Program-made: the position numbers and the translations under genes | Virus record (IMG/VR): IMGVR_UViG_3300005588_000038 | Coordinates: 1 to 63,128 of that record | Length of the DNA: 63,128 nt | Source of the DNA: a virus | Direction: 5' to 3' (one strand) | Notes under the pieces: model-generated | What the model saw: only the letters and a program-made list of their open reading frames with translations | Databases searched by the model: none | What the model was told of the DNA's origin: nothing | In this document: piece by piece, positions 7,997-49,522 of the stretch | Layout: each line of letters starts with the position of its first letter | Numbering within the stretch: position 1 is the stretch's first letter

Positions 7997-8007
7997 GAGG
8001 AAGCAAG

Positions 8008-8443: not shown

Positions 8444-8446
8444 GAT

Positions 8447-8677: not shown

Positions 8678-8683
8678 TGTCCC

Positions 8684-9217: not shown

Positions 9218-9241
9218 GCTGTGGGTACCGAAAGGCAGGAA

Positions 9242-10096: not shown

Positions 10097-10107
10097 TTGC
10101 CGTAGCT

Positions 10108-10332: not shown

Positions 10333-10377
10333 TGGCTGACCATAGGACGGCCCGGTTAGACGAAAGGTGAGAAAGAC

Positions 10378-10626: not shown

Positions 10627-10681
10627 TGAATTGAAGAATGGACTTGAACATCTTAGGCGGTGCCTGTAGTCTGCCGAAACT

Positions 10682-20903: not shown

Positions 20904-22232
20904 ATGCTGGTCTTTCTGCAAGGAGGGTTGCAGCTACTTTCAGCAGCAACCAGCTCTTCTTCGAGTTCTCTGTCAAGCAGCAGCTCCGAATCATCGAGTA
21001 GTCGATCATCATCGAGTTCGATTTCGAGTAGCTCAAGTCAGTCATCGAGTAGTCAATCTTCGTCAAGCTCTGTTTCTAGTTCGTCGCAGAGTAGCTCAAG
21101 TTCTCTGTCAAGCAGCTCTGCATCGAGCAGTTCCAGCAGTTCGAGTTTATCATCGAGTAGTCAGTCGAGCAGCAGCTCGGTATCAAGTTCGTCTCAAAGT
21201 AGTTCGAGTAGTCAGTCGTCGAGCAGCCAATCAAGCAGCAGCTCAGAATCGTCGAGCAGCCAATCAAGCAGCAGCTCTTCTTCGAGTTCATCGCAAAGCA
21301 GCAGCTCTCAGTCGAGCAGTTCGAGTCAGAGCAGCTCAAGCCAATCGAGCAGCAGCTCTGAATCATCGAGCAGCCAATCTTCGTCAAGCTCATTGAGCTC
21401 AAGCAGTCAATCATCAAGCAGTAGTCAATCAGGCTCGAGCCAATCAAGCAGCAGCTCCGAATCATCGAGTAGCCGATCTTCGTCGAGTTCACTGAGTTCG
21501 AGTAGTTCGTCGTCAGTCAGCAGTTCGAGCCAATCAAGCAGCAGCTCTGAATCATCGAGTTCACTGAGCTCTTCGAGCTCTTCGAGCTCAAGCAGTCAAT
21601 CATCTAGCAGCAGTCAGTCATCATCTAGTCAAAGCAGTTCAAGTCAGTCGAGCAGCAGCTCCGAATCATCGAGCAGTCAGTCGAGCAGCAGCTCCGAATC
21701 ATCGAGCAGTCAGTCATCATCTAGTTCAAATTCTTCGAGCAGCCGGTCATCAAGCAGCAGTCAATCCGGCTCGAGCCAATCAAGTAGCAGCTCGATTTCT
21801 TCGAGCAGCCAGTCATCAAGTAGCCAATCGAGCAGCAGCTCTGAATCATCGAGCAGCCAATCTTCGTCAAGCTCATTGAGCTCGAGCAATAGCAGTCCAT
21901 CTTCAAGTTCTCATTCATCTAGCTCAATTTCAAGTAGTTCGAGTCAATCAAGTAGTTCGAGTCAATCAAGCAGTCAGTCATCATCCAGCTCTCAGTCGAG
22001 CAGCAGCAGCTCCTCTTCTAGTTATTCGAGCAGCAGCCAATCGAGCGAAAGTTCATCAAATTCATTCTCTGAATCGTCTTCATCATCAGCAAGATTGGTC
22101 CATCCAGCCGGAAAAACAATCAATGCTGTTGGGGTATCTGCATCTTCATTCACGTCAAGTGGATTCACGTCAAGTGGATTCACGTCAAGTGGATTCACGT
22201 CAAGTGGATTCACAATACCAGTAACTGAGTAA
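20904..22232 (+). CDS. Serine-rich (S/Q/E) low-complexity protein
   Basis: 442 residues. After MLVFLQGGLQLLSAAT, residues about 17-400 are almost pure Ser broken by single Gln, Glu, Leu, Arg, Ile, Val, Asn or Gly. A short tail (RLVHPAGKTINAVGVSASSF), then four exact FTSSG repeats and FTIPVTE close the protein. Serine codons from both the TCN and AGY families alternate. A 62-bp block is duplicated (21339-21400, 21822-21883). The domain is mucin-like and a good O-glycosylation target. An extended stalk or surface coat is likely; two nearby phage proteins carry shorter versions as C-terminal tails. Confidence 0.75.
   Translation: MLVFLQGGLQLLSAATSSSSSSLSSSSSESSSSRSSSSSISSSSSQSSSSQSSSSSVSSSSQSSSSSLSSSSASSSSSSSSLSSSSQSSSSSVSSSSQSSSSSQSSSSQSSSSSESSSSQSSSSSSSSSSQSSSSQSSSSSQSSSSQSSSSSESSSSQSSSSSLSSSSQSSSSSQSGSSQSSSSSESSSSRSSSSSLSSSSSSSVSSSSQSSSSSESSSSLSSSSSSSSSSQSSSSSQSSSSQSSSSQSSSSSESSSSQSSSSSESSSSQSSSSSNSSSSRSSSSSQSGSSQSSSSSISSSSQSSSSQSSSSSESSSSQSSSSSLSSSNSSPSSSSHSSSSISSSSSQSSSSSQSSSQSSSSSQSSSSSSSSSYSSSSQSSESSSNSFSESSSSSARLVHPAGKTINAVGVSASSFTSSGFTSSGFTSSGFTSSGFTIPVTE
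21339..21883 (+). repeat. 62-bp exact duplication within the serine-rich gene
   Basis: Positions 21339-21400 and 21822-21883 are identical by eye, both beginning AGCCAATCGAGCAGCAGCTC and ending TCATTGAGCTC. The gene as a whole is a mosaic of related short serine units, suggesting growth by recombination between units. Confidence 0.75.
22149..22208 (+). repeat. Four exact 15-bp tandem repeats (FTSSG)
   Basis: TTCACGTCAAGTGGA is repeated four times without change, then TTCACAATACC. It encodes FTSSG four times at the end of the serine-rich protein. The unit is likely to vary in copy number by slippage. Confidence 0.9.
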
Positions 22233-22238
22233 TCCATC

Positions 22239-22595
22239 ATGTCGTTAATCCATGCGTATCAAAATCGAGGAAAAACCTGGGAATTCCAGATCAATGGATC
22301 TGACGGTTCTGCCGTTACTCCTGGTGATTCTGATAAAGTTCGGATTATCATTGGTCGAGAAGGACAGCTCGGAGTTGATTTATCGAATGCTGAATTGGTG
22401 GTCACATCTGAATCAAGCACAGATGCCGGATCGTCAATTACTACAGGTTCGACCAATACACTTCGTCTGGACGCAACTGATCTGGCATCGATTGAACCTG
22501 GGATTTACACTCTGTTCGTAGATTACTACGACAGTTCTGATGGCGATGAGTGGAAGAACGTCGACAGACAGGTGTTCAGTTTGGAGTCTACTTAA
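22239..22595 (+). CDS. Hypothetical beta-rich virion protein (118 aa)
   Basis: ATG 22239 shortly after the serine-rich gene. The beta-sandwich-like sequence (TWEFQINGSDGSAV, KVRIIIGREGQLGV, GIYTLFVDYYDSSDGDEWKN) resembles phage baseplate or neck adhesion modules and small decoration domains. No specific family identified. It abuts the head-tail connector gene. Confidence 0.6.
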   Translation: MSLIHAYQNRGKTWEFQINGSDGSAVTPGDSDKVRIIIGREGQLGVDLSNAELVVTSESSTDAGSSITTGSTNTLRLDATDLASIEPGIYTLFVDYYDSSDGDEWKNVDRQVFSLEST

Positions 22596-23417
22596 ATGGG
22601 ATCGATTGTCGACATCAGTGAAGTTCTCCTAGAAGCAGGATTAGCCGCATCTGCGACGGAGACAGAACGTGCAATCTTCGCTCAAGTCATTTCTCGAGTC
22701 GAAGGACTGGTGATTCAGCATCTTAGGTACGATCCTGTGCAGCGTACTCGAACTGAATTCTATCCTCTCCAAGAATTAAATCTGTCTGGGTCAGATGGTG
22801 TCTGGCAGGTGAATGCGAGTGCAGCTTATTTCGAAAGAGCTAACCAAGTCGCAGGCAATGAGCTTCAAGTTCGTCATGTCCCGATTCGGCAAAGAGATTC
22901 ATCAGGAGATGGTGCAATCGATCTTCGCCTGGATTATGGGGCTCGATCAGGCACCAACGTCGGTTCGTTTTCAGAGTCCACCCAGAAGACAGAAGGTGTG
23001 GATTTCTGGCCTAATTATGATCAGCAGGATTCTTCGGGTTACGGTGTTTGCCGTGACGGAATTCTTCGGTCTCACGGAAGATGGCCTGTTGAGCCTGGTT
23101 CTGTCAAGATCACTTATCTGGCAGGGTATACTTCTGCTGAATTGCACGGGCAGGATTCAGCGGTAAACGCTCGACCCATTCTTGATGCGGTATTGACAGA
23201 ATCAATCCGCCAAGTAGGCAAGGTTTATTCGAGAATGAAGAAGGCTCGCGGCGGGTTTGGTGTCGGTCCTCTATCAGGAGAAGACCTTGGGGATTACGCC
23301 TACACGACTAACGGTGATCTGATGTCGTCCATCTTCGGGACGGGTGAGAGTCTCTTATCCGAAACTCGTCAGAGTTTGTCAGAGTTTGTCAATTATGGAT
23401 GGGCGATTGGAGGATAG
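22596..23417 (+). CDS. Head-tail connector protein (gp6-like)
   Basis: 273 residues. The helical N-terminus (DISEVLLEAGLAASATETER, FAQVISRVEGLVIQHLRYDP) followed by a beta insertion (VRHVPIRQRDSSGDG), then a SVKITYLAGYTSAEL segment and a DAVLTESIRQVGKVYSRMKK helix, is the usual layout of gp6-like adaptors that bind under the portal. The position ahead of neck genes and the portal fits. ATG 22596 immediately follows the stop of the gene before. Confidence 0.75.
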   Translation: MGSIVDISEVLLEAGLAASATETERAIFAQVISRVEGLVIQHLRYDPVQRTRTEFYPLQELNLSGSDGVWQVNASAAYFERANQVAGNELQVRHVPIRQRDSSGDGAIDLRLDYGARSGTNVGSFSESTQKTEGVDFWPNYDQQDSSGYGVCRDGILRSHGRWPVEPGSVKITYLAGYTSAELHGQDSAVNARPILDAVLTESIRQVGKVYSRMKKARGGFGVGPLSGEDLGDYAYTTNGDLMSSIFGTGESLLSETRQSLSEFVNYGWAIGG

Positions 23418-23419
23418 CT

Positions 23420-23803
23420 GTGAGTCTCTTGGATTCTTTTCCGCACCTTTGCACTATCTCGAAGAGAACTCGATCTAAAGGGAACTCGACTACAGGTGGT
23501 TCGGTTGACGCAACTCCTGCGGTGCAGACAGGAGTCGAGTGCTGGGAGCAGCAGTTATCGTCGAAAGAGATCTTGGAGTTCCAGAAGAGAGAGCTAGTGG
23601 TTTCAAGAAAAGTGTACTTCTTGGCTGACCCGGGAATCGGAACGAAGAATCTAATCACCATCACATCGAGAGATGGACTGGCCATCCCAGAGGCCAGTCA
23701 AATTCCGATGGATGTAGTAGGCAACGCACAGCCTGACGCTAGTGCAGGCCTCGGCGTTGTGTATCGCGTGTATGTTGCCGAAACTACCGGAGACGGTATC
23801 TGA
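23420..23803 (+). CDS. Probable head-closure (head-tail joining) protein
   Basis: 127 residues. GTG 23420 has GGAGGATAG upstream, better than an in-frame ATG at 23399 inside the previous gene. Begins MSLLDSFPHLCTISKRTRSK and continues with a beta-rich body (GVECWEQQLSSKEILEFQKR, KVYFLADPGIGTKNL) ending in RVYVAETTGDGI. The size, D..PH...I start and order are those of phage head-closure proteins that plug the neck. The family link is inferred from pattern. Confidence 0.65.
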   Translation: MSLLDSFPHLCTISKRTRSKGNSTTGGSVDATPAVQTGVECWEQQLSSKEILEFQKRELVVSRKVYFLADPGIGTKNLITITSRDGLAIPEASQIPMDVVGNAQPDASAGLGVVYRVYVAETTGDGI

Positions 23804-24138
23804 TGCGTGTTTCTTGCGAAAATTTAGATGACTACACCGTCAATCTGGATGCAGTAGATGACGATCAGATTTTTGATGGTGTAGTTCGTGTCTCAAAGAT
23901 TGTGCAACCTGAGAACGAAGTCAAGGATCAGGTTGCAATGTATTCTTCTTGTGTCATTGACGTAGACGACAGAAGCCAGTTCATTCTTGAGCTTGTGCTG
24001 CCTTGTGGTTACGATTACAAAGATGGAGGCAAGGACGCAAGCGGTGGTTCTAGAATGTACGCTGATGTTCGTGCAGAGCTAGAGGGCTATCTAGCAAAAC
24101 GAAAAGTGAAAATTCTGCCTGGTGTGATCGATTTCTGA
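23803..24138 (+). CDS. Hypothetical neck-region protein (111 aa)
   Basis: ATG overlaps the previous stop (TGATG). Acidic beta-rich protein: MRVSCENLDDYTVNLDAVDD, a FILELVLPCGYDYKDGG strand pair and a C-terminal YADVRAELEGYLAKRKVKI helix and strand. No family recognised. Its position among head-tail joining genes suggests a structural role. Confidence 0.6.
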   Translation: MRVSCENLDDYTVNLDAVDDDQIFDGVVRVSKIVQPENEVKDQVAMYSSCVIDVDDRSQFILELVLPCGYDYKDGGKDASGGSRMYADVRAELEGYLAKRKVKILPGVIDF

Positions 24139-24152
24139 GGAGAACTTCAAAA

Positions 24153-24464
24153 ATGACGAAAGTTGTCAACCATGAGACGAAAGAAGCGTGCACTGAGGCC
24201 TTGAAAGAGCAAGTTCAGGCAGTGACCAGCTCAGGTCGTCCGTGGATGGGTGTTCTGTTTCATGTTGACAGCAAAGGGTACATGCGTCTTGATCGAACGT
24301 CATGTGAGTTTCCGACTCACAGATTTGGAGAATGTGCTGATTTGCTGGTTGAATGTCTGCGAGAAGGTGCGGCTCAGGCGGCAGGCTTGAGTGCGCTGCC
24401 GAAGGGCGATCTGAACGAATTATTTCTACAGTCCGAGGAGGGTTGCAGTGGAGTGGATCCGTGA
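24153..24464 (+). CDS. Hypothetical protein (103 aa)
   Basis: ATG 24153 with GAGGAGAACTTC upstream. A compact helix-strand protein (KEACTEALKEQVQAVTSSGR, then GVLFHVDSKGYMRLDRTSCE and CADLLVECLREGAAQ). No known family. Its 3' end overlaps the start of the next gene by 17 bases. Confidence 0.6.
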   Translation: MTKVVNHETKEACTEALKEQVQAVTSSGRPWMGVLFHVDSKGYMRLDRTSCEFPTHRFGECADLLVECLREGAAQAAGLSALPKGDLNELFLQSEEGCSGVDP

Positions 24465-24828
24465 GTTGTGGGTAGGTTGGTGTGTTGGGCGGTATTTGAA
24501 AAAACTCCACCGTAGAGCACAAAATCTTGAGAGACAGTCAAAAGAAACTGAAAACCGCGTTCAGTGGAGATTGAGTAGGCTAGAAGAATCGGCCGCCGCT
24601 TTTGAATCTCGATTGAGCAAAGCACAGCAAGAAGTAGCCCACCTCGAGGCTATCAATAAGAAATATGAAACTGAGCTGGAGATCATTCGCGATGAATTGA
24701 CGATCGCACAAGACGTCACCATACCTGGACTGATGTCCCAGTGCGACCGATTGATCCAGAAATGGAAAGCAGAATCCAGGATCGAAGTGATGCGGGCGAC
24801 GGCGGCTCAAAAACAGACTGAAGAGTGA
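24448..24828 (+). CDS. Coiled-coil protein (126 aa)
   Basis: GTG 24448 follows GGAGGGTTGCA. A short hydrophobic start (MEWIRELWVGWCVGRYLKKL) leads into a long helix with heptad pattern (LERQSKETENRVQWRLSRL, AQQEVAHLEAINKKYETELE, ELTIAQD). It could be a scaffold or spacer near the portal; nothing more specific is visible. Confidence 0.65.
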   Translation: MEWIRELWVGWCVGRYLKKLHRRAQNLERQSKETENRVQWRLSRLEESAAAFESRLSKAQQEVAHLEAINKKYETELEIIRDELTIAQDVTIPGLMSQCDRLIQKWKAESRIEVMRATAAQKQTEE

Positions 24829-24833
24829 GTTCG

Positions 24834-26453
24834 ATGAGATATTCTCCAATCAAGAAATCATTGGATGCCCGAGACGTGAATGCGTCGCTGGCTCGATCGG
24901 CAGCCTTAGATAGAATTGCATCTACTGGTGCCAGTGGTCTGCTGCAATCACTTTCGCCTGGTCCAGTTTCTGGATTTCTCAGCGAGTTCAGTTCTTCGGG
25001 GCAGGATGCTGAGAGATATCGGAATTATCGGCATTGGGTCTATTCTGCTGTCAATGCACTGGCTCTTCAGGGCTCAGGGCAAGCAGCTAATGTCGTGCGT
25101 CTTCTAGGCACTGGAGACCAGAAGCAGAAACCAAAGGTAGGTGAGAAACAGTACGCGACAGCAGAGTATCGGAAAAGAATGCCTTCGCATCTACAAGCGA
25201 AGGCTTCGAATCAGCAGATCGAGGTTCTCAACAATCATCCGATTTTGACTGCACTAGAAAAACCAAATCCAGTGCAGTACCGATTCCAATTCATCTACTC
25301 GTTCATTGCCAATCTTGCCTTGACTGGATGGAGTTATCTTGTCGGCGGAGAAACCGAGGACGGCAGCCTTGAATTGTATTCAGTACCGACTACCTGGATC
25401 AAACCAGTCCACCGAAATGAACTGTTTTCTGAATTCAGATTGGTGAATCCGAATAATCCAACAGCGGAAGGAGTCTTGCTTAGCAAAGAGAACGTGGCAT
25501 TTGCTCAGCTGCCGGATCCAAGTGATTTATCAAAAGGATTGGCTCCAGCGGATGCTCAAGAAAATGCCATCTCAATCGATACCAAAATCCAAACCAGTCA
25601 AAGAAGTTTCTTTGACAACGGAATCTTCCCTTCTGTCATTGTGACAGTAGGAAGAGACCCGCATCCAGATGTTCCAGGAGGTATTCGCCCAAGACTGACA
25701 GCACCTCAAAGAAGGCAGGTTATCGGTGCGATTCGAAAGGTCGCTGGTGGGATTTCGAATTACGGTAATCCAGCGATTGTTGACGGCTTGATTGAGAAGA
25801 TCGAACGGCTATCAGCTACTCAGACAGAAATGGGCTGGGAAAAAAGTGAAGGTCATGTCCGTACCCGAATCTTGTCAGCGTATGGGGTTCATCCATTCAT
25901 CCTCGGCGAAACAATGGCCGGATCATACGCTCAAGCCTATGTGGTGAAGGATCAATTTTGCAGTAGAGTGAACACCTTTCTTGATCTGCTGGGTGTTGTG
26001 TCTACTGATTTTCTCGTTCCGATGGCTTCTCGGAATGATTCGCTTCGGATATGGTATGACCCGTGTGAGGCAAAAGATCCGGCACTTGACCAGAAGCTTT
26101 GGACAGATGCTCGAAGAAATCAAGATGTCACTCAGAACGAGTTCCGGGCTTTTATGGGCCTGCCGCCTGACGTTGATCGAAATGAATCAGTGATCAGTCA
26201 TCAAGCACTCCAAGGAGTTCTGAATATTGCCGCTCAGTCGTACCAAGGCAAAGTCAGCCCAGAACAGGCATCCGCTATTCTAGAGGCAGCAGGAATTCCA
26301 ACAGATTTAGCTGAAAGAATCAGTGGATCGGGCCTATCGGTTTCTCAAGGAATTGGAGCACTGGAAGAGGCAATGCGTGCTCTTGGTGGTATGTTGACGG
26401 ATAAATCAGTCGATGCGGCTGAGATAGCTCAGAGGGTTGCATGCCGAGTCTGA
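24834..26453 (+). CDS. Portal protein (HK97-like)
   Basis: 539 residues. Start 24834 ATG is preferred; GTG 24825 is possible and overlaps the previous stop. Portal features include a YRHWVYSAVNALALQGS N-terminal segment, HPILTALEKPNPVQYRFQF, an ALTGWSYLVGG strand, SVPTTWIKPV, and a C-terminal helical part (RTRILSAYGVHPFILGETM, EFRAFMGLPPDVD). It forms the dodecameric ring through which DNA enters and on which terminase docks. The next gene (minor head protein) overlaps by 13 bases. Confidence 0.85.
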   Translation: MRYSPIKKSLDARDVNASLARSAALDRIASTGASGLLQSLSPGPVSGFLSEFSSSGQDAERYRNYRHWVYSAVNALALQGSGQAANVVRLLGTGDQKQKPKVGEKQYATAEYRKRMPSHLQAKASNQQIEVLNNHPILTALEKPNPVQYRFQFIYSFIANLALTGWSYLVGGETEDGSLELYSVPTTWIKPVHRNELFSEFRLVNPNNPTAEGVLLSKENVAFAQLPDPSDLSKGLAPADAQENAISIDTKIQTSQRSFFDNGIFPSVIVTVGRDPHPDVPGGIRPRLTAPQRRQVIGAIRKVAGGISNYGNPAIVDGLIEKIERLSATQTEMGWEKSEGHVRTRILSAYGVHPFILGETMAGSYAQAYVVKDQFCSRVNTFLDLLGVVSTDFLVPMASRNDSLRIWYDPCEAKDPALDQKLWTDARRNQDVTQNEFRAFMGLPPDVDRNESVISHQALQGVLNIAAQSYQGKVSPEQASAILEAAGIPTDLAERISGSGLSVSQGIGALEEAMRALGGMLTDKSVDAAEIAQRVACRV

Positions 26454-27526
26454 GTCACAATGACCCGAAGTTTGCGATATCAGTCGGACTGCATTTCGCA
26501 GCGTCCGAAATTGCGAAATTGGCGAACACTCTGTGGAGGAAATCTACAGCAGATTTCTATTCGAATCAACGAAATGATTCAGAGGAAGCTTTGGCTGATT
26601 CTGTGCGGAAAGTGATAGATGAGCAAATCACTTCGGCAGAAACTGCACTAAAGGCATTGGCAGCCGCCGGCAGCTCGATACCGACAGCCGAATCTATTTT
26701 CAATCCATCGGATTGGACTTCTGCTCTGATCGATGCTTCACTTCCTCCTATGCTTCTGGGCATGGTGCAATCTGCTGGGGCTGAGTACGTTCGTCTTGGT
26801 AATCGTGCTCGAGATTTTGAAAAAGCATCGACAGCAACAGAATGGCTGAATGACCAGACGGACGGTGGGTTCGAAGATCTTGAATTTTTAGTTGTCGGTC
26901 CTGATGGAACACCGTCCACAGTAACAATTCAGATCACCACAGAGTATCCGGAAGCGATTAAGCAGGAGATCGAAAATCAGCTCAAGGAAACATTCGCTCA
27001 AGATTATTGGGTGGATATCGGTAATGAGACACTGAGCGACATTCACCAGTTTCTCCAAGAAGGATTGGTGAACGGAGCTTCGATCGTACAGATGGCCGAG
27101 AGCATTCGATCAGAGTTAGGAGGAACTTCTCGTCAAGCTGATATCAGAGCAAAGCGAATTGCTCGGACGGAAATGACCAATGCTCTTAATGGGGCTCGAT
27201 CGGCAGCGATCGACGAGTTTTTTGCTGAGGTTCCTGATCTACCGATGAAGAAAGTCTGGTTGTCGATTCTTGCAGATACAACCAGACCTGAACATGCTGA
27301 CTTGGATGGGGTCCCAGCTGATGAAGAAAATTTGTGGACGCTGGCGGGGTACCGTGTTCGATGGCCTGGTGATATCATTTTGCCCGCAAAGCATCGATGC
27401 CATTGTCTGTGTACAGTTCATGTAGAATTCGGAATGACTGACGCAGAAGCTCGTCAACTTCGTACTGAGTACGATGAACGTGTTTTGGTAACTCAAAGAG
27501 AAATGGAGTCAAGGGAAGATGGCTAA
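26441..27526 (+). CDS. Minor head protein (Mu F / SPP1 gp7-like)
   Basis: 361 residues overlapping the portal gene. The C-terminal half holds the family signatures ARTEMTNALNGAR, KVWLSILADTTRPEHADLDG and KHRCHCLCTVHVEF (conserved R-C-x-C). Such proteins sit inside the head near the portal and can be ejected with DNA. The N-terminal half is variable and helical. Immediately downstream of the portal, as usual. Confidence 0.85.
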   Translation: MPSLSHNDPKFAISVGLHFAASEIAKLANTLWRKSTADFYSNQRNDSEEALADSVRKVIDEQITSAETALKALAAAGSSIPTAESIFNPSDWTSALIDASLPPMLLGMVQSAGAEYVRLGNRARDFEKASTATEWLNDQTDGGFEDLEFLVVGPDGTPSTVTIQITTEYPEAIKQEIENQLKETFAQDYWVDIGNETLSDIHQFLQEGLVNGASIVQMAESIRSELGGTSRQADIRAKRIARTEMTNALNGARSAAIDEFFAEVPDLPMKKVWLSILADTTRPEHADLDGVPADEENLWTLAGYRVRWPGDIILPAKHRCHCLCTVHVEFGMTDAEARQLRTEYDERVLVTQREMESREDG

Positions 27527-27944
27527 GTGTCCGAGGATTGGAGATCTCAAAGGAATACAACCTGTTTCGGCAGGCAGTAGAATTCTGGTGCGTATTCATC
27601 CTGGGACATCGAAGACCCAAAGAAAAAGGCTAGCGGCCAGTATCAACCGAATGATGGATACCGAGGTGTGTGTGTTGTTCGCAGACCCAGTATCAGTCAC
27701 GATGTTGATAGCTCGGTGGACAGGGACTACACATGCTCAACCGGAGCGGTTGATAGGACCTGAGGACTCGTCTGTGCTGAAGCCCGAAGGCGGTACGATT
27801 CAAGTAAACTGCTCAGAGGTGGAGCTGGATAACAGTGATCGAATATTCGTTATCAACCATTCACTCACTGCTGCTGACTTCAAGAAATTTTTGATAGATC
27901 TGAGGCAGTGGTGCGGATCAACTGTAGAGGTGGTAGCCCCTTGA
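27519..27944 (+). CDS. Hypothetical protein (141 aa)
   Basis: ATG 27519 overlaps the minor head gene by eight bases. A small alpha/beta protein with a KTQRKRLAASINRMMDTEVC helix and a GGTIQVNCSEVELDNSDRIF strand region. No family recognised. Overlaps the next gene by four bases when TTG 27941 is used. Confidence 0.6.
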   Translation: MAKCPRIGDLKGIQPVSAGSRILVRIHPGTSKTQRKRLAASINRMMDTEVCVLFADPVSVTMLIARWTGTTHAQPERLIGPEDSSVLKPEGGTIQVNCSEVELDNSDRIFVINHSLTAADFKKFLIDLRQWCGSTVEVVAP

Positions 27945-28201
27945 CTGAATCAAAGCAGCAAGAAAGCAGCCAATCTCCAGGAAGCCGGCTGGTACGAGTA
28001 CTTCAGCAAAGACCGGACGATTCGCTTGAGGTGTTTCTCAATAAAATGAATCAGTTCGATCGTCAATTTTGCGATATGATGGCCAACGGCTCAGAGTTCA
28101 CCATTCGACTTGAAATACGAGGACAAGGAGGACGAGTTCTGCAAACTCGAGTCTATCTCGATGATGTAGGGCGTCCTCAAGCTCGAAAGGATTCCGATTG
28201 A
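27941..28201 (+). CDS. Small hypothetical protein (86 aa)
   Basis: TTG start at 27941 is preferred: GAGGTGG lies about nine bases upstream and TTGA overlaps the previous stop. A GTG at 27908 would be longer but has poor spacing. The protein has SLEVFLNKMNQFDRQFCDMM and a EFTIRLEIRGQGGRVLQTR strand. Function unknown. It ends the first head operon, before a terminator. Confidence 0.5.
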   Translation: MTESKQQESSQSPGSRLVRVLQQRPDDSLEVFLNKMNQFDRQFCDMMANGSEFTIRLEIRGQGGRVLQTRVYLDDVGRPQARKDSD

Positions 28202-28289
28202 ATTTCAAGAATTGTAAAACTCTGCTCTTGTCGAACTGATAGACAGCCTTTAGCGTTTCGGTTCAAGCAGTCTGCCGCAGCCATAAACC

Positions 28290-28334
28290 GCCTAGGAGAC
28301 TTTTCATTCGATAAGTCCTCTAGGCTTTTGTTTT
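28290..28334 (+). terminator. Rho-independent terminator
   Basis: GCCTAGGAGACTT (28290-28302) pairs with AAGTCCTCTAGGC (28313-28325), with a two-base internal mismatch, followed by TTTTGTTTT. It lies in the gap before the gene at 28353. Confidence 0.8.
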
Positions 28335-28352
28335 GGTTGGAGAAAACTTCCA

Positions 28353-28799
28353 ATGAAGAACGTGACTTTTTATCTCGGTCCTGCTCCGTCGAATTTGAGT
28401 ACCCGGACGCTGACCATCACACGAATCCCGGATGCTGGTAATGACAGCTACTCTGCAGTTCACAACGCTGATGCCGGAGTAGTTGATAATGTCACTGTTG
28501 CTTTGGCGAGCAACATCATGTGGCAGGCAAAGCTCGTCGATGTGCTTGATTCAGGAGAAACATCGAATCCAGCAATCCTCAACTTCCACACAGGGTCACT
28601 TCAGTTCCCTGGGCCTGCGTCAGGTGATCGACTGAGTATTCTGTCGATGGAAGATCTGTCCAGCTCGAGTAGTAGTTCATCGGATTCATCATCTTCAAGT
28701 GAATCCAGTTCATCTCAGAGCAGCTCAAGTCAATCCAGTTCATCGTCTTCGAGTGAGTCGAGTTCATCGCAGAGCAGCTCATCGAGTCAATCGTCGTAA
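28353..28799 (+). CDS. Virion protein with serine-rich C-terminal tail
   Basis: 148 residues. The first 100 are a beta-rich domain (MKNVTFYLGPAPSNLSTRTL, VDNVTVALASNIMWQAKLVD) like an Ig or fibronectin fold. Residues about 101-148 are Ser with spaced Gln, Glu and Asp, as in the long protein at 20904. It lies between two transcription units of head genes, so it may decorate the head. The tail is a candidate glycosylation site. No family named. Confidence 0.65.
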   Translation: MKNVTFYLGPAPSNLSTRTLTITRIPDAGNDSYSAVHNADAGVVDNVTVALASNIMWQAKLVDVLDSGETSNPAILNFHTGSLQFPGPASGDRLSILSMEDLSSSSSSSSDSSSSSESSSSQSSSSQSSSSSSSESSSSQSSSSSQSS

Positions 28800-28875
28800 A
28801 GTAAATTCGATGATCACCCGGTCGTGTGCTGCTTGAAAGACTTTTATCAAGAATCAAACTTCGCTAGAGGCAGAA

Positions 28876-29238
28876 ATGGCTGCTCGACAAAAACCTCAAA
28901 CCAGTCCGGTGCTCGACAATACTGATGTTGATGCTGATGGATCAGATCGGGACAGAATTGTCAAGAGCCTGAGCACTGATGATGTGTTGTCGATTGTGCG
29001 GTTTATTCAGGTCAGTCCGCTCGAAGCTGTTCTACAGTTACGGCAGAAAACACACAGCACACTCAAAAGACTTGGAGTGTCTCGAGATCCGTCAGCGGCA
29101 ATACCCTTTCGCCGAGCAGATGGATCTATCACTCCAGGAAGTATCTACACATGGCTTGATAGTGTTGATTCTGGAGACAAAGTGAGCTGTGAGCAGGTGG
29201 TGGCTATCGATGCCACGTGTTTGGTTCGGGGGATCTAA
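28876..29238 (+). CDS. Hypothetical protein (120 aa)
   Basis: ATG 28876, with GAGGCAGAA upstream. Acidic N-terminus, then a helical body (DDVLSIVRFIQVSPLEAVLQ) and a C-terminal strand (CEQVVAIDATCLVRGI). No family recognised. Its stop overlaps the start of the next gene (TAATG). Confidence 0.55.
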   Translation: MAARQKPQTSPVLDNTDVDADGSDRDRIVKSLSTDDVLSIVRFIQVSPLEAVLQLRQKTHSTLKRLGVSRDPSAAIPFRRADGSITPGSIYTWLDSVDSGDKVSCEQVVAIDATCLVRGI

Positions 29239-29528
29239 TGCATCTGTCCTATGAGCAAATCACTGCCACAGGTGCAGTAAAGACAGCGGATAATCTTACG
29301 ATTCCGCCTAAGGCAACTCATGCAGAAATTCAGGCTGATCCAGGCAGCAGCAGTATCAAATACACTATGGACGATTCAACTGATCCGACAACATCATCGG
29401 GCATGTCTCTAGTGGCTGGTCTTGCTCCGATGCTAGTCCTGATTGAAGATCTTCGTCGGATTCGATTCATCAACGACGGGTCTGCTGCAAATCTCGACAT
29501 CCATTATTTAGGCGGCAGGGACATCTAG
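29238..29528 (+). CDS. Small beta-rich virion protein (96 aa)
   Basis: ATG 29238 overlapping the preceding stop. Sequence MHLSYEQITATGAVKTADNL, KATHAEIQADPGSSSIKYTM and a terminal IRFINDGSAANLDIHYLGG resembles small phage decoration or cement domains that recur in virion proteins. Located just before the protease and capsid genes, consistent with a capsid role. Not proven. Confidence 0.6.
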   Translation: MHLSYEQITATGAVKTADNLTIPPKATHAEIQADPGSSSIKYTMDDSTDPTTSSGMSLVAGLAPMLVLIEDLRRIRFINDGSAANLDIHYLGGRDI

Positions 29529-29549
29529 TTCTGCTAGAAGAAGTGACAT

Positions 29550-31067
29550 ATGCCCCATCCGAATACCGAACTGCTGAAGAAGATCAAAGCTCGGAAGTCT
29601 ACGGCTACTGAGTTCAAGTACGGGATCCGGACAGCAGAAGAGTACGTCAAAAATCTGCAGGTCTGCGTCGGTGATGAGTTTTGCTGGAAAAACCTCACCG
29701 CCAGAGGAGTGTCATTTCAAGATGTGCTATCAAAGTCAGCCCGAACACTGACCTACAACAATCCTGAAATGACGGTTGAGGAGAAATCTCATACTGAATC
29801 TGTCGGCGGTGATTACGAATTGCCAAAGAACACGCTGATGGTTTTCAAGAACACCTTGACTACGTCCAGGATGGATCGTGACGGTGACATTCTGAGGACA
29901 GCAGGAGCTGAACCAGATCCTGAGATGCTCTTGCTTTGGCAGCATGTGCACACTCTACCGATTGGTAAAATGCTCGCCATCGTCGATCATACTGAGAGTA
30001 AACTTTCGGTGGTGACTGCTATTGTCGATATCAACGACCTGGCTCATGATTCGGCAGTGATGGTTGATAACAAAATGGGTCGGTTTTCTCATGGATTTCG
30101 GGCTCTTCAATTCAGTGAATTGAAGGCTGAGCCCGGAGAGACATCCAGTGGTGGATTTGACATCAAACGATTTGAGATTCTCGAAGAATCTCTAGTCAGT
30201 GTCCCGTCTAATGCTGACGCTGAGACTGAGGAAGTGATTCTGGATTTGGTCGAAGGCAAGCAGCTTACCAGCGGTGTCATGAAAGCGGTAGGAGCTAATA
30301 TCCGAGAAAAGCAAACCACCACAACAGTTGCAGGTGGTTTGCCGGACGAATTGAAGGAGAAGAAGGGCGATGAATCAGACCAAACCAAACGAAGCTGCTC
30401 CTGCGGAGGTGCGAAGACAGGAAGTTCCGAAGGAGGAAGTAGCTCATCAACCGAAACCAAAAAGGATGAAACCAGAGAAGCGGCAGACACCAAAGACTCG
30501 AAAGGGTTGACCGAGAAGTGGTATCCGGTTTACGCAGGAATGCTCGATGATAGTTGGGAGAAGACTATTGAAGAGCTCGGAGCCCAGGCTCATCGGTTTC
30601 TCAAAGACAAGGGATTGGTACCCGAAAAGACTCCGGATAACTACGTCTATTCGTATGCCTATGTACTAGGAACCTGGGCAGGCGAAGCTGTCATTTGCTG
30701 CTACATTGACCAAAGCAGTGACGATGATGTCGAATATCGATATTACCAGGCATCTTGGAGTCAGAATCAAAATGAGGTAGCTGAGTTCTTCGGAGATCCT
30801 GTGCAGGTTGAGGTTTCGACTACTGTTGAGATCGAAAGGAAGACCGAAAAGGCAGTTCAATTGGACAAGAAGTCCGTTGACGAAGATTTGAACGCTGATG
30901 CAGACACCGACACAGGCAACGAAGTCCAAAAAGCGATGTCGGTGCTTATGGTGTCCGCAGATGAAGCTGAGCAGAGACGACTGGTGAATGTCTTGTCTAA
31001 GCTGCTTGAGCAGAAGAAAAACCATCGAGAATTCCAATCCATTAAAGGATTGGTAGGCTCTAAGTGA
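29550..31067 (+). CDS. Prohead protease with long C-terminal extension
   Basis: 505 residues. The S78/U35 fold is at about residues 95-235: LMVFKNTLTTSRMDRDGD, LLLWQHVHTLPIG (candidate catalytic His near 130), FSHGFRALQF (candidate Ser near 179), and FEILEESLVSVPSNADAE. It matures the HK97 capsid. Residues about 250-505 are an acidic linker (KKDETREAADTKDSKG), a possible separate alpha/beta domain with KWYPVYAGMLDDSWE, and a helical end. That extension is long for the family and could be scaffold or another activity. Confidence 0.85.
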   Translation: MPHPNTELLKKIKARKSTATEFKYGIRTAEEYVKNLQVCVGDEFCWKNLTARGVSFQDVLSKSARTLTYNNPEMTVEEKSHTESVGGDYELPKNTLMVFKNTLTTSRMDRDGDILRTAGAEPDPEMLLLWQHVHTLPIGKMLAIVDHTESKLSVVTAIVDINDLAHDSAVMVDNKMGRFSHGFRALQFSELKAEPGETSSGGFDIKRFEILEESLVSVPSNADAETEEVILDLVEGKQLTSGVMKAVGANIREKQTTTTVAGGLPDELKEKKGDESDQTKRSCSCGGAKTGSSEGGSSSSTETKKDETREAADTKDSKGLTEKWYPVYAGMLDDSWEKTIEELGAQAHRFLKDKGLVPEKTPDNYVYSYAYVLGTWAGEAVICCYIDQSSDDDVEYRYYQASWSQNQNEVAEFFGDPVQVEVSTTVEIERKTEKAVQLDKKSVDEDLNADADTDTGNEVQKAMSVLMVSADEAEQRRLVNVLSKLLEQKKNHREFQSIKGLVGSK

Positions 31068-31128
31068 TGCACGGAATCCCGGCGGTCGGGAAGAGTGTTT
31101 TGTTGACTGTGAGATGAAAGGTCATACG

Positions 31129-32802
31129 ATGAAACTCACAGCCCGTCTTCGGAAGTGGTTGATTGACGAAGTCAACGTCAAAGCCAATGCCACGGACGAA
31201 GAATTTCTGAAGGCCGCCGGTGCGGCACTTGCAGACGGTTCGTTGTCGGTCGAAAAGTACTCGGAACTCACAACGGACGAAGAAGAAAAAGCCGTCTCGG
31301 AACTGCAATCGACACTCAAGTCAATTGCGGATGGGATGGCTGCCATCAAAGAGTCGCTTGCTCAGCCGAAGTCTACTGAATCTGCTCCTGCTGAAGAAGA
31401 GAAACAGAAAGGTGGAGCAGACGAAGGCGGCACGAAAAACTCAGAACCAGACGGCACTAAGGCTGTCGGTTCGGACGGAGCAGCGACCGGAGACACGACG
31501 GCCATGTCGATTGAGCAGATCCGGCAGGCACTCGGCCACAATGCCGGCGGTGATGATCTTCTGGATGGTTCCAAGTCAGTTTCTGCGGCACCTCGTGTCA
31601 AGAAGGCTGTTGAATCGTACGGGACGACCAAATCGGCTCTGGTGTACCCTGATCGTACCCAGAAAGGTGGCGTGCACACCTTTTCCGGTGAGCGTGTCAC
31701 GGACATGGGGCGTGGGCTGGATTCGGCATCTGAGCGGGGCAAGGCGCTGGCAGGGGCTTGGGCTAAGTTCCAGCTCGCTTCAGCAATCCCAAGAATCGCC
31801 GGGTCTGCTCAGCGTGCCTGGGAAATGCTCAGCGACCACGAGAAATGCCTGCTGCACCATCTATGTGCAGAAGAGCAGTGGGACTCCAGTGTCGATGAGA
31901 AATCCCGAATCCAAAAAGGCTATGCCCCCGGCGGGATCAAGGCGCTTATCGACGACTCAACGTCAGGCGGCCTGGAAGCTGCTCCAATCGTGTTCGATGA
32001 CATGGTTATCGAAACTCCTCTTCTTTACGGTGAGCTTTTTCCTCTGGTAAACACCGTACCGCTGGCACGAGGTCGTCGGATCGAAGGGGTGGAAATTGGG
32101 ACGGTGACGGGAAGCTGGGGCGGGGTTGACGACTCCGCTATCAACCTGTTCAATACCGCGTCGTACGTGTCAGCGTTCGATACGACCATCTTTCGGTGGG
32201 AAGGTGCTATTCGGATTGGACTGGACTTCATGTCCGACACGCCTCTTGATTTTGGAGCGGCTATCACTCGCCAGTACGGTGAACGGTTGCTCGAGGATCT
32301 CGATGACGTGATTGCTGTCGGGAACGGCACGACTCAGCCGGAAGGCGTGATGAACAAGTCCGGGGCGACGTCTGTTGCATTCGGCGGCACCACTTCCCTT
32401 GGCAACTATGAATCTCTTCGGTTCGGTGTTTCCAAGGCAGAGCATCGATCGACTATTGCCCGTACCGCTGTTTTCTGCGGAACAGAAACCAGCTATCAGC
32501 GGGCTCGAGCAATTCCGGTCGGTGCATCGGATGCACGTCGTCTGGGTGGTATGAACTATGATTCGTACACTTGGATGGAACGCCCGTACAAGATCAATGA
32601 GTCTCTTTCGAACTCGCAGATCTTCTACGCCATCCTTGCTCGGTACCGGATGTACCGCCGACGTGGATTCTCAGTTCGACAGTCCACTGAAGGTGATACG
32701 TTGATCCGAAACAATGAAATGCTGATGGTGGCCATGGCTCGCTATGGCGGTCAGGCTGAGCGTGGTGCAGTTGTTGCTTCGACGACGACTGCTCCTGCGT
32801 AA
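31129..32802 (+). CDS. Major capsid protein (HK97 fold) with N-terminal scaffold domain
   Basis: 557 residues. Start 31129 has AAAGG upstream; ATG 31114 lacks one. The first 270 residues are helical and Glu/Lys/Ala-rich (delta or scaffold region, partly cut by the protease). The HK97 core begins near residue 277: SGGLEAAPIVFDDMVIETP, TGSWGGVDDSAINLF, RLLEDLDDVIAVGNGTTQPE and a C-terminal MVAMARYGGQAERGAV. Very likely the most abundant virion protein; the gene is followed by a strong terminator. Confidence 0.9.
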   Translation: MKLTARLRKWLIDEVNVKANATDEEFLKAAGAALADGSLSVEKYSELTTDEEEKAVSELQSTLKSIADGMAAIKESLAQPKSTESAPAEEEKQKGGADEGGTKNSEPDGTKAVGSDGAATGDTTAMSIEQIRQALGHNAGGDDLLDGSKSVSAAPRVKKAVESYGTTKSALVYPDRTQKGGVHTFSGERVTDMGRGLDSASERGKALAGAWAKFQLASAIPRIAGSAQRAWEMLSDHEKCLLHHLCAEEQWDSSVDEKSRIQKGYAPGGIKALIDDSTSGGLEAAPIVFDDMVIETPLLYGELFPLVNTVPLARGRRIEGVEIGTVTGSWGGVDDSAINLFNTASYVSAFDTTIFRWEGAIRIGLDFMSDTPLDFGAAITRQYGERLLEDLDDVIAVGNGTTQPEGVMNKSGATSVAFGGTTSLGNYESLRFGVSKAEHRSTIARTAVFCGTETSYQRARAIPVGASDARRLGGMNYDSYTWMERPYKINESLSNSQIFYAILARYRMYRRRGFSVRQSTEGDTLIRNNEMLMVAMARYGGQAERGAVVASTTTAPA

Positions 32803-32838
32803 TCTCGCTGAGTTGGCTGTGTAGCTGACTCTCGCCCT

Positions 32839-32877
32839 GCCTGGGGGACGACTTCCTCGGACGTCCCCCAGGCTTTT
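32839..32877 (+). terminator. Strong rho-independent terminator after the capsid gene
   Basis: GCCTGGGGGACG (32839-32850) is exactly complementary to CGTCCCCCAGGC (32862-32873), followed by TTTTA. Typical placement after a highly expressed capsid gene. Confidence 0.92.
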
Positions 32878-32918
32878 ACTGCATTCCGAGGAAACCAAGG
32901 GCGAGAAGAGGAACATAG

Positions 32919-33533
32919 ATGGCTACTCAAGAAGCTATCGCTGAAATGGCGACACTGACAAAGTTTTCAGTTGAGGCTGATCATCCGCAAAATTCAGATC
33001 TTCTCATTCAGACGATTCCTGGATGTCGGTTGCGGAGTTCAATTTCAGGCTCGAAGCCGGTTCGAGATGCAACAACAGGCAAGATCATCGGTGTACCAAA
33101 AGACCGGGTACTTGCTTTGGGCTCTCTGCCTCGTATTCCGGGAATGGTGATCACGGTCTTTCCTCTGAAAAAGACTTACGAGATCACTGATGGTCTCGAA
33201 GGCGAAGATGAAATCCTTGCCGAGATCAAGCGGTGGTTGAAGGAAAATCGACAAGGAGGAACGGACTCCGAGCTTCGACCTGTTCCAAAGAGTGAAGGGA
33301 AACTGGACGCAAACTCAATGAAAACTCTTTGCCGAGAGCTGTACCATATCGTCGAAGCGGACGAAGGTAAGCTCGTCGAAGGGCCGTCGAGTTTGAGTCT
33401 GGAAGACATCGACGATCTCCCAGGAGATTACCTCCTCAATCCAGGCAGTCGAGTTTTCAATACGCAACCCAAACTTGAAAAAGATTTTGATTCTTGGGTT
33501 GCACGAATGTCATCTTCGTCAAGTGAGAACTGA
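32919..33533 (+). CDS. Hypothetical head-neck protein (204 aa)
   Basis: ATG 32919 with GAGAAGAGGAAC upstream. Contains DHPQNSDLLIQTIPGCRLRS, then RVLALGSLPRIPGMVITVFP, and a DSWVARMSSSSSEN end. It may be a neck or decoration protein. It overlaps the next gene by one base (TGATG). No family recognised. Confidence 0.55.
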   Translation: MATQEAIAEMATLTKFSVEADHPQNSDLLIQTIPGCRLRSSISGSKPVRDATTGKIIGVPKDRVLALGSLPRIPGMVITVFPLKKTYEITDGLEGEDEILAEIKRWLKENRQGGTDSELRPVPKSEGKLDANSMKTLCRELYHIVEADEGKLVEGPSSLSLEDIDDLPGDYLLNPGSRVFNTQPKLEKDFDSWVARMSSSSSEN

Positions 33534-34006
33534 TGCCGGTCAAGTCGATACAACGTGCTCAGGCAGTAGAAAGAGCTCGCGTCCGTCGAGTGTCTGCTGC
33601 CCAAGCACGTCTTCGGCGAGATGAGTGGTTCATCAAAGAAAGACTGAACGAGATCCAACTCACCTTGTGGCAACGAATCCGCATCGCGGTGATGTTCGTT
33701 AAGACTAAGGTGGTGCTGAATATCAGCAAACCAGTTACCCGAGGCATCAGTGCTCGGACCGGTCGAGTTGTTGTCATCGAACGAAGTAAGCCAGGAGAGT
33801 ACCCAAGAGCCGATACAACTCTTCTGATGAAGTCTATCTTCACTGACACCGTCAAGACATCACCGGGTGTGGTGGACGGGTTCATTGGGTCACCTGTGTG
33901 GTACGGATTGGTACTCGAAACAAAATTGGATCGTCGATTTCTGACCAGAACCCTCTTTGAGCAGCAGGATAGAATTCGACAAATCCTTTCAGGTCCGATT
34001 AAATGA
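33533..34006 (+). CDS. HK97 gp10-like neck/tail-completion protein
   Basis: 157 residues. The family pattern is visible in the second half: GEYPRADTTLLMKSIFTDTV, then GFIGSPVWYGLVLE followed by DRRFLTRTLFEQ (the usual Y-A-x-x-x-E and R-P-F-L motif). The N-terminal helix is Arg-rich. Such proteins join the tail to the head. Located between the capsid and tail genes as expected. Confidence 0.75.
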   Translation: MPVKSIQRAQAVERARVRRVSAAQARLRRDEWFIKERLNEIQLTLWQRIRIAVMFVKTKVVLNISKPVTRGISARTGRVVVIERSKPGEYPRADTTLLMKSIFTDTVKTSPGVVDGFIGSPVWYGLVLETKLDRRFLTRTLFEQQDRIRQILSGPIK

Positions 34007-34491
34007 TTGGGTCTCGAGATGTTCATGAGGCTGTGGCGACTGCTTGGGATTCAGCAGATCTCGACGATCTATTCACTGCTTACTGGGGTGGTGATGATTC
34101 AGATGATTTTCTTGTTCTCAATGATCAAGAAGCCGCTCCTGAGCAGCCGTTTCCGTACTGCATTTTCAATCAAGAAGAGCCGATTGTTGTCAACAGGATG
34201 TCTGGCACTCTGTCAGCTCGCCGAGAAGTTCGAGACATCATCTGGGAATTTCGAGTCTATGCCAAAACGGTGGACTCAACGGCGGCTAAGGATGTTGCTG
34301 GTGCTTTAGCTGAAGAAATCATGAAAGTGTTCGGAGGCCATCCTACCGAAACGCCTTCAGCTCTTTCGTTAGATACTGGTCAACATCTGATCACTCAATA
34401 CCTAACAGATTACGGAATGCGGCTTGGGGATAGTGAGCACTATTGGTTGGTGCGATATCTGTTTCGGGTCGATGTACCGGTAGCTCAGTAA
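34003..34491 (+). CDS. Probable tail terminator protein
   Basis: 162 residues, ATGA overlap with the gp10-like gene. The layout of a DHxxAxxA-like N-terminal helix (VHEAVATAWDSADLDDLF), a PYCIFNQEE strand, EVRDIIWEFRVYAKTVDS and a C-terminal HYWLVRYLFRVDV strand is typical of tail terminators, which cap the tail tube at the neck. Assignment mainly by pattern and gene order. Confidence 0.65.
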   Translation: MIGSRDVHEAVATAWDSADLDDLFTAYWGGDDSDDFLVLNDQEAAPEQPFPYCIFNQEEPIVVNRMSGTLSARREVRDIIWEFRVYAKTVDSTAAKDVAGALAEEIMKVFGGHPTETPSALSLDTGQHLITQYLTDYGMRLGDSEHYWLVRYLFRVDVPVAQ

Positions 34492-34501
34492 GGACTGACC
34501 G

Positions 34502-35176
34502 ATGGGAACGCGATCACTGACAACGCCGACAGCCTTGGCGCAGATTACCGCGACAGTGGTAAATGCGTCGGACGTAAATTCCAGTGTTTCGGTTTCGGGC
34601 CAGGTAAAGGCTACCAAGAAATCTTCGATGACGAATGGAATCGGTTCTAACCAATCGAATCGCGCGTGGCAGTTTTCTGGGACGATTCCGTCGGGAGCGT
34701 CCATTGTCATCGATCTGTACGATTTTTCCGGATACGATTTTGGAATGGGTGATGGTAATGATATTACCGGACAGGCACTGACTGTCGAAGAAATCACAGC
34801 AATTCAGATCCAGAACGATAATGCGGTGACGGCGGATGGTCAGCTTGAAATTGAACCTGACTCGACTAATGGGTGGACGCCGATTGGTACCCACACAGCC
34901 GCAACAGGCGGTGCTCTGCGGGGCGGCGGTGTGCTGCACAAGGCCCAACCTGCGGCGGCGGCTTTTGATGTCGTTGACGCATCCAGCCACCGATTAAAGC
35001 TGACTGCAAACGGCGGCGCGGTGGTGTACACAATTGCGTTGATCGGTCGACACGATGATGACGAAAGCAGTAGCTCTTCGAGCAGTTCTTCGTCATCGAG
35101 CAGCTCATCCCAGTCAAGCAGTTCTTCGTCATTGAGTAGTTCATCGTCGTCAAGCAGTTCATCGCAGTCTTCTTAA
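34502..35176 (+). CDS. Neck/tail decoration protein with serine-rich C-terminal tail
   Basis: 224 residues. Residues 1-185 form a beta-rich domain (LAQITATVVNASDVNSSVSV, GASIVIDLYDFSGYDFGM, AITAIQI-like strands); it lacks a clear family. Residues about 190-224 are mostly Ser with a few Gln and Leu. It lies directly between the tail terminator and the tail tube gene. It is the third phage protein with the Ser-rich module, consistent with surface display at the neck or tail. Confidence 0.65.
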   Translation: MGTRSLTTPTALAQITATVVNASDVNSSVSVSGQVKATKKSSMTNGIGSNQSNRAWQFSGTIPSGASIVIDLYDFSGYDFGMGDGNDITGQALTVEEITAIQIQNDNAVTADGQLEIEPDSTNGWTPIGTHTAATGGALRGGGVLHKAQPAAAAFDVVDASSHRLKLTANGGAVVYTIALIGRHDDDESSSSSSSSSSSSSSSQSSSSSSLSSSSSSSSSSQSS

Positions 35177-48235: not shown

Positions 48236-48713
48236 CATTACTCGAGCCTACGACTGGGAAGAAAAAATCTGGGGAAGAACGTGCCGGCAGCCTGTTTCTG
48301 CTCTTAAGGATTCCGAAGAGAGAGCAGGAATCAAGTATTCCTTAGTCATTCAAGAAGGTGGATGTTGCTCGTTCCATTATCATGCAAACCGAAGTAATCG
48401 ATTCGAAGTCACTTCTGGTGTGCTTCGGGTTGTGTGGGCTATCGGTTGGGAATTGTTCCATCGAGACCTCCGAAAAGGCGACTCACTGCTAATTCGAGCA
48501 AACATCCCTCATCAATTTCAGTGCTTACGAGGAGAATCCTACGCAAAAGAAATCTATCTACCAGATGGAGGAGGCGTAGATGTGACTGATATTGTGAGGA
48601 TGACTACAGGCGTGAAGCTGGATTCGAAATCAGAAAGATTTCGGACTCTCGTAGAGCGGCCTTGTGTTGTTTTGGCTGATGGTTCTTTCAGGACACCAAT
48701 CAAAGATGATTGA
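48228..48713 (+). CDS. Cupin-domain protein
   Basis: 161 residues, overlapping the previous gene by eight bases. Cupin motif 1 is GGCCSFHYHANRSNRFEVTSG (H-x-H ... E/R) around 45-65 and motif 2 DLRKGDSLLIRANIPHQF near 81-98. Metal-binding His pair and the final His (PHQF) are in the expected places. Mannose-6-phosphate isomerase-type or sugar-epimerase cupins are the likeliest relatives. It probably acts on a nucleotide sugar here. Confidence 0.75.
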   Translation: MTDITRAYDWEEKIWGRTCRQPVSALKDSEERAGIKYSLVIQEGGCCSFHYHANRSNRFEVTSGVLRVVWAIGWELFHRDLRKGDSLLIRANIPHQFQCLRGESYAKEIYLPDGGGVDVTDIVRMTTGVKLDSKSERFRTLVERPCVVLADGSFRTPIKDD

Positions 48714-49500: not shown

Positions 49501-49522
49501 GTTATTAGCAGTAGTGGACGCA

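Follow-up and report, generated by a model that had tools for sequence, protein, structure and literature searches.

Glycosylated virions have been described for mycobacteriophages, in which, according to the accounts of Freeman 2023 given in PMC12619734 and PMC12691614, glycans are located at the C-termini of capsid and tail-tube subunits, and in bacteria the Maf enzymes transfer nonulosonates activated with cytidine monophosphate (CMP) to serine (Ser) residues of flagellin within the cytoplasm (PMC13317340). The IMG/VR virus record IMGVR_UViG_3300005588_000038, which carries siphophage genes and was analysed over its whole length of 63,128 nucleotides (positions 1 to 63,128; hereafter the window), encodes three Ser-rich proteins as well as a glycan cassette that follows immediately on the tail genes (~45-54 kb). 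From our point of view, it is rather likely that the three proteins are structural or surface proteins of the phage with polyserine acceptors, and that these are glycosylated by a phage-encoded cytoplasmic pathway during assembly. The Ser chains would hence probably be sugar-coated, and comparative genomics lends strong independent support to the proposed link between the Ser domains and the sugar enzymes.

A first-pass annotation of the window had pointed to three Ser-rich open reading frames (ORFs) lying among fibre, head and neck genes, and both statements proved correct. The largest of these ORFs encodes 442 amino acids (aa), of which 322 (73%) are Ser, specified by all six codons (AGC 95, TCA 68, AGT 60, TCG 56, TCT 35, TCC 8), and the proteins starting at 28353 and 34502 carry Ser tails; around them, portal, head morphogenesis, protease, major capsid protein (MCP) and tape measure genes were identified with PHROGs, and a LamG fibre at 18992 with Pfam. 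The two smaller proteins, F28 (ORF 28353-28799, 148 aa) and F34 (ORF 34502-35176, 224 aa), consist of a conserved domain, a fixed junction and the Ser tail, an architecture that recurs in >40 related contigs. Among viral contigs we found 56 relatives of F34 and 43 of F28, with a domain identity of ~45-60% and with the same F28-F34 gene order, the two genes being ~6 kb apart. The Ser tail is present in 43/43 F28 relatives, where it immediately follows 'SMED(L/M)'. Nearly all F34 relatives (56 in total) have one too, which in the close ones begins directly after 'RHDDDE' or a variant of it; only remote F34 homologues (L058, L059, L061 and one of the three copies in L056) are without a tail and end at the junction. 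The tails start abruptly at the conserved junction and are C-terminal in the window as in most relatives, so that both proteins terminate within the Ser tail and no C-terminal wall anchor follows. The exceptions are L021 and L034, where the Ser stretch connects two folded domains. Ser tails also occur in other phages on further structural proteins, for example on relatives of the protein at 40322.

The giant Ser protein of the window was found in this contig alone, the near-identical contig L062 beginning at about window position 22160, inside the end of the gene. At least five relatives (L063, L070, L078, L097, L102) encode a comparable, very long Ser protein upstream of their connector genes, and several of these proteins have a common C-terminal motif similar to 'PASKxxxxVGxSS'; shorter Ser proteins occur in the relatives L071 and L100. 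A different kind of Ser-rich region, acidic-rich and built from SES/SDSDS repeats, was seen in the related contig L007 (17266-17877).

The first-pass annotation had further proposed to look for the same Ser module together with transferases in related phages, and such a combination is indeed found: of 33 related contigs, each taken whole, 22 encode A3, a putative glycosyltransferase, and 22 encode A4, its proposed partner (Table 1), both with ~40-58% identity and 6-18 kb downstream of F34. Most of the 11 contigs without a close copy of A3 or A4 stop soon after the tail genes, and G004 and G022, which have the longest downstream stretches among them, likewise stop before the position of the cassette, such that G004 only seemed to be an exception. 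A CMP-sugar synthetase (PF02348) was detected in 25 of the 38 contigs tested, including eight distant A3-bearing viruses, and in the distant phage L312, with an A3 identity of 35%, the gene order kdsB-A3-cupin-A4-methyltransferase-50185 is kept. As described for phage virion glycosylation, phage-encoded glycosyltransferases thus lie among virion genes, and the core of the cassette is conserved in related contigs. In the first set of loci, A3 (47339) and A4 (48664) had relatives by BLAST, and the genes at 41123, 43224, 45298, 45962, 52348 and 53803 had one at most. Apart from its core, the cassette thus varies within the phage group, and most other genes of the tail end are not conserved either.

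Outside this phage group, A3 homologues were found mostly in metagenome-assembled genomes of Planctomycetota and Verrucomicrobiota. In bacterial chromosomes they adjoin Ser-rich RHS or Hint proteins, in part as the gene immediately upstream. Of 80 bacterial loci, 25 have the start of a Ser-rich region 0-1 kb downstream of A3 and another 22 have it at 1-2 kb (47/80 in total), and all other 1-kb bins within 10 kb contain such a start in 0-2 loci. In most of the 47 loci the neighbour is a Ser/Thr-rich Hint protein belonging to one Phycisphaerales cassette; with this cassette left out, a Ser-rich ORF lies within 5 kb in 10 of 29 bacterial loci, and at 5-10 kb in one more. RHS/YD-repeat-type proteins with a Ser-rich N-terminus were found near A3 in L173, L183, L204, L240 and L245. 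On one chromosome, all four A3 copies have a Ser-rich neighbour, and 400 kb sampled there contained two Ser-rich ORFs, one of which was itself an A3 neighbour. Ser-rich ORFs were likewise seen close to A3 in distant viruses (34-40% identity), for the most part on other scaffolds. Since A3 and Ser-rich proteins are linked in independent bacterial and distant viral contexts, the shared ancestry of one phage genome is not a sufficient cause of their co-occurrence. The interpretation given in the first-pass annotation is therefore supported in part: the A3/A4 core in 22/33 contigs and the position of A3 beside unrelated Ser-rich proteins elsewhere back the suggestion that Ser domains and sugar cassette belong together, a coat on the particle being a possible consequence.

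The cassette members are also joined to each other in bacteria, where A3-A4 and A3-A4-methyltransferase-50185 fusions occur and where the 53803 protein is likewise among the linked genes. In L177 (9500-13804), a single frame of 1,435 aa combines A3, A4, Methyltransf_24-like and 50185 domains; a Ser-rich RHS-like protein of 2,383 aa is encoded on the opposite strand. In L193, L196 and other Phycisphaerales-type loci (~8,000-12,300), the cassettes comprise a methyltransferase, A3 and the Ser/Thr-rich Hint protein. A3 cassettes can be present in several copies, with four A3 genes in G034 and ~7 in G041. The Phycisphaerales-type cassettes are preceded by a protein that resembles phage structural proteins (compare 40322 of the window), and these cassettes are possibly domesticated phage tail modules.

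With regard to its family, profile and motif comparisons make A3 most probably a CMP-sugar-dependent transferase with a remote relationship to GT42 and Maf. PHROGs assigned 17/18 A3 members to alpha-2,3-sialyltransferase, PF01973 (Maf/MptE-like) was matched by 13/18 members with a best E-value of 3.2e-5, and in hhalign the alignment A6 matched four PF01973 proteins of Phycisphaerales-type genomes with an E-value of 3.2e-5 and a probability of 72%. For a profile of phage and bacterial A3 sequences, the eight best matches in the PDB are all chains of GT42 sialyltransferases, with two motifs being colinear. The conserved motifs of A3 are GGPS near the N-terminus, an invariant Asn pair and LGxxxIFLVGVDFxM...YxF; compared to the GT42 motif, the Asn after GPS and the Tyr of YAF are kept. 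A4 shows a conserved 'YWLKLDTDVVA' of the DxD type, as in GT-A enzymes, and family searches with A4 returned no match.

In their composition, the tails vary around a common theme. The median F34 tail is 75% Ser, its spacers being Q/E in some phages and IST or VT/GT/AT in others, and the non-Ser residues of the tails are rich in Q, E and V with almost no Cys, Lys, Arg or Tyr. The Ser codon entropy has a median of 2.33 of 2.585 possible bits (n=66 tails); all six Ser codons are mixed, which argues for selection on the amino acid rather than for a DNA repeat. In a sample of 33 non-redundant phages, the non-Ser composition of the F28 tail is closer to that of the F34 tail from its own phage (cosine 0.77 vs 0.54 for permuted pairs, p ~5e-5) than homologous tails from different phages are to each other (0.53-0.54), and Ser codon choice correlates between the tails of one phage (r 0.82). 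Gene conversion, our first reading of these concerted tails, was dropped as a settled cause, as the identical DNA runs of same-phage tails are short (median of 15 vs 12 bases by chance); the likeness could possibly stem from exchange, from a common codon bias or from common selection. One could also imagine that the Ser regions as a whole are a functionless by-product of DNA repeat expansion. Some tandem repetition at the DNA level in the Ser ORFs, the slightly longer shared DNA and the correlated Ser codons indeed suggest that slippage or recombination contributes. We nevertheless reject a DNA-repeat artefact, which we regard as extremely improbable, on the grounds of codon entropy and conservation: the entropy is near maximal, the junctions are fixed and the tails universal across relatives whose domains have diverged to the identity given above, and the Q/E/V spectrum is not what single-base decay of Ser codons would be expected to produce.

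It is further conceivable that the Ser regions carry no modification and act as disordered spacers or as an entropic brush, the sugar cassette serving another purpose. Polyserine linkers that need no glycan are known from bacterial enzymes, and the Ser stretches between two folded domains in L021 and L034 would fit such a role. Nonetheless, we hold this explanation to be unlikely, as the tails are mostly terminal, joining nothing, and as the A3 homologues of bacteria and distant viruses are linked to Ser-rich proteins of unrelated kinds. The latter linkage also bears on the idea that the cassette alters the host envelope against superinfection, by way of lipopolysaccharide (LPS)-like glycans with 3-deoxy-D-manno-octulosonic acid (Kdo) or sialic acid, in which case the co-occurrence with the tails would only reflect shared phage ancestry. 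KdsB and GT42 relatives typically function in the synthesis of LPS or lipooligosaccharide, and phages can change the surface sugars of their hosts; yet the same enzymes, including fused forms, adjoin Ser-rich RHS and Hint proteins in bacterial chromosomes, and the phage cassette adjoins tail genes, in several phages just downstream of another Ser-bearing protein, which makes an envelope function quite improbable in our view. The tails could finally be modified by another chemistry such as phosphorylation, poly-Ser regions being possible kinase substrates, or by host enzymes only. As no phage kinase is found among the annotated genes and the conserved neighbours are of transferase and methyltransferase types, there is very little to recommend this last option.

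Several observations weigh against the glycosylation of the tails by the phage cassette and have to be set beside the evidence in its favour. The 47 bacterial loci mostly represent one paralogous Phycisphaerales cassette, and the number of independent events is accordingly far smaller than 47. The 38 contigs tested for a CMP-sugar synthetase include 13, some of them incomplete, in which none was detected. Carriers of a tail-less F34 exist (L058/L059, L061), and the L058 contig stops before the position of the cassette and hence provides no negative control. GT42 enzymes use an active-site His; A3 is without an invariant His, and the Tyr after GxDF is replaced by Met. A3 also remains below the PF01973 cut-off of 34.6, the window member scoring 13.5 bits and two bacterial homologues 21-22 bits, and the E-values of the A3 profile against the PDB are only 0.008-0.056, so that the GT42/Maf likeness is a remote one.

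If the phage indeed glycosylates its Ser tails, the enzymes would act in the cytoplasm, the site of phage protein folding and of CMP-sugar synthesis. The KdsB-like enzyme would activate an acidic sugar (Kdo or one related to it) with CMP, and A3 could transfer this sugar either to the tail Ser itself or to a sugar already placed there. Extension, methylation and capping of the glycan might then fall to A4, the GT2/TOD1-like enzyme and the methyltransferases. The outcome would be a hydrophilic, probably acidic glycan bottle-brush at the head, neck and fibre region. With regard to its benefit, we would think of particle shielding and solubility before adhesion to matrix or host glycans, and of protease protection or receptor decoys last. 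We infer glycosylation itself, sugar identity, enzyme order, virion location and benefit from the composition and context of the genes.

The predicted folds of F28 and F34 would suit surface decoration proteins, with F28 being a candidate for such a role. The AlphaFold2 (AF2) model of F28 has a predicted local distance difference test score (pLDDT) of 81, and Foldseek matched it to FN3 domains with template modelling (TM) scores of ~0.5-0.6 and a best E-value of 6e-3. F34 is beta-rich (pLDDT 72, core >90), with weak Foldseek matches to coat-protein/jelly-roll folds and to phage proteins. Its identification as coat protein, tail-needle knob or spore appendage was not built upon, as the matches were too weak (TM 0.3-0.5), and PDB sequence searches with F28, F34 and A4 yielded nothing usable. 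In L036 (10687) and L010 (10515), F34 is followed by a second F34-like protein with an insertion resembling a carbohydrate-binding module (ELITNGDFATGD...), hinting at glycan-binding decoration proteins.

Table 1. Positions in the window of the Ser-rich proteins and of the members of the sugar cassette.
Feature	Position	Strand	Remarks
Very long Ser protein, 442 aa, 73% Ser	20904..22232	+	Spacers Q/E/L/R/V/I; C-terminal tail ARLVHPAGKTINAVG...(FTSSG)4
F28 domain, predicted FN3/immunoglobulin-like beta-sandwich	28353..28658	+	Between head-morphogenesis and protease genes; alignment A2, AF2, Foldseek
F28 Ser tail, 46 aa, 85% Ser	28659..28796	+	Fixed junction after ILSMEDL; in every F28 relative found
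F34 domain, predicted beta/jelly-roll-like	34502..35062	+	Between neck genes and putative tail-tube gene; alignment A1, AF2, weak Foldseek
F34 Ser tail, 37 aa, 89% Ser	35063..35173	+	Fixed junction after GRHDDD
GT2 + TOD1_MUCI70-like glycosyltransferase, variable member	45962..47335	+	
A3, GT42/Maf (PF01973)-like glycosyltransferase, proposed Ser-tail transferase	47339..48235	+	
Cupin protein, conserved core	48228..48713	+	Pfam PF00190; recurs between A3 and A4 in relatives
A4, GT-A-like protein with YWLKLDTDVVA (DxD-type) motif	48664..49500	+	Fused to A3 in several bacterial loci
FkbM methyltransferase, variable member	49514..50191	+	PF05050
Unnamed cassette protein (50185)	50185..51090	+	Fused with A3/A4/methyltransferase in bacteria
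Methyltransf_24 methyltransferase	51083..51787	+	Family in 21/33 related contigs
CMP-Kdo-synthetase-like (KdsB/CTP_transf_3), proposed CMP-sugar supplier	52348..53085	+	PF02348
Second Methyltransf_24	53101..53676	+	Fused with A4 and 50185 relatives in bacteria
Unnamed cassette protein	53803..54573	+	Recurs in bacterial RHS-linked cassettes

The record probably represents an uncultured tailed virus of planctomycete-type bacteria, the putative host (planctomycete/verrucomicrobial group) being deduced solely from the A3 relatives. Among 50,697 phage records, F34, A3, A4 and MCP had no relatives and the portal had distant matches only; F28 was absent from 84,980 genomes searched for prophage-type evidence of the host, and neither F28 nor F34 occurs in the bacterial A3 loci. 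Queries with DUF932 and SNF2, intended to provide background contigs, returned too few loci. Upstream of the fibre genes, the window encodes a protein with a C-terminal thioredoxin-like domain (16092-17015), and a phage-encoded sigma-70 region 2 protein (54921-55484) adjoins an SNF2 helicase gene. Both ends of the record consist of short tandem repeats (on the right, at 63029-63128, 6.7 copies of the 15-bp unit TGCCGACGACGGTGA; on the left, at 1-45, units of 12-14 bp), and the contig may therefore be broken at repeats.

In a wider sense, the data could reflect an undescribed polyserine-targeting protein-glycosylation system that is common to the Planctomycetota/Verrucomicrobiota group and their viruses, with virion, RHS and Hint proteins as acceptors and polyserine as a general glycan scaffold. 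A Maf/GT42-like transferase, a CMP-Kdo-type sugar supply, a GT-A partner, methyltransferases and two unnamed proteins would be its components, and for this joint proposal we see the arguments on either side as evenly balanced. A search of the literature on polyserine or Ser-rich phage proteins brought up nothing relevant. If true, phage particles would have a second way of becoming glycosylated, chemically distinct from the first, and a poly-Ser tail together with A3/A4 would be a sequence signature by which glycosylated virions or surface proteins could be predicted in metagenomes. The system would also account for the giant Ser-rich proteins that have been a puzzle in planctomycetes and verrucomicrobia, and its compact enzymes might be of use for glycosylating simple Ser tags.

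Among the known systems, the polyserine linkers of secreted bacterial carbohydrases (polyserine is discussed in PMC2699552) are likewise almost pure Ser, of low complexity and disordered, whereas the tails described here are mostly terminal and tied to a transferase cassette. The term mucin-like, used in the first-pass annotation, captures the dense Ser domains, which are real, but goes no further than a likeness, as Pro is nearly absent and the eukaryotic GalNAc machinery is missing. With the Ser-rich repeat glycoproteins of the GspB/Fap1 type the locus shares long Ser-rich acceptors encoded near dedicated glycosyltransferases. It differs from them by SSSSx instead of Ser-x repeats, by other transferases, by the lack of a wall anchor and by acceptors that are phage or RHS/Hint proteins; GtfA/GtfB and SecA2/SecY2 did not turn up in the general Pfam scans of the cassette, which were not directed at them.

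On the side of the enzymes, A3 has the colinear GPS and LGxxxxYLxGxDF...YAF motifs of GT42 (CstI/CstII type), although with weak E-values, with Met in place of the CstII Tyr and with the His missing, and its proposed acceptor is a protein. To the Maf flagellin O-glycosyltransferases (PF01973) it is connected by a remote sequence similarity and by the proposal that Ser residues in a structural protein receive their sugar from a CMP-sugar in the cytoplasm; it is, however, under the Pfam cut-off, does not have the size and context of Maf, and neighbours Ser-rich proteins rather than flagellin. The virion glycosylation of mycobacteriophages, as summarised in the two papers that cite Freeman 2023, resembles the present case in that phage-encoded glycosyltransferases are proposed to decorate C-terminal regions of virion proteins. 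According to the same summaries, it is the capsid and tail-tube subunits themselves that are modified in those phages, whereas the acceptors proposed here are separate proteins with dedicated poly-Ser tails, and the enzymes, GT42/Maf-like and combined with a CMP-sugar synthetase, belong to another family.

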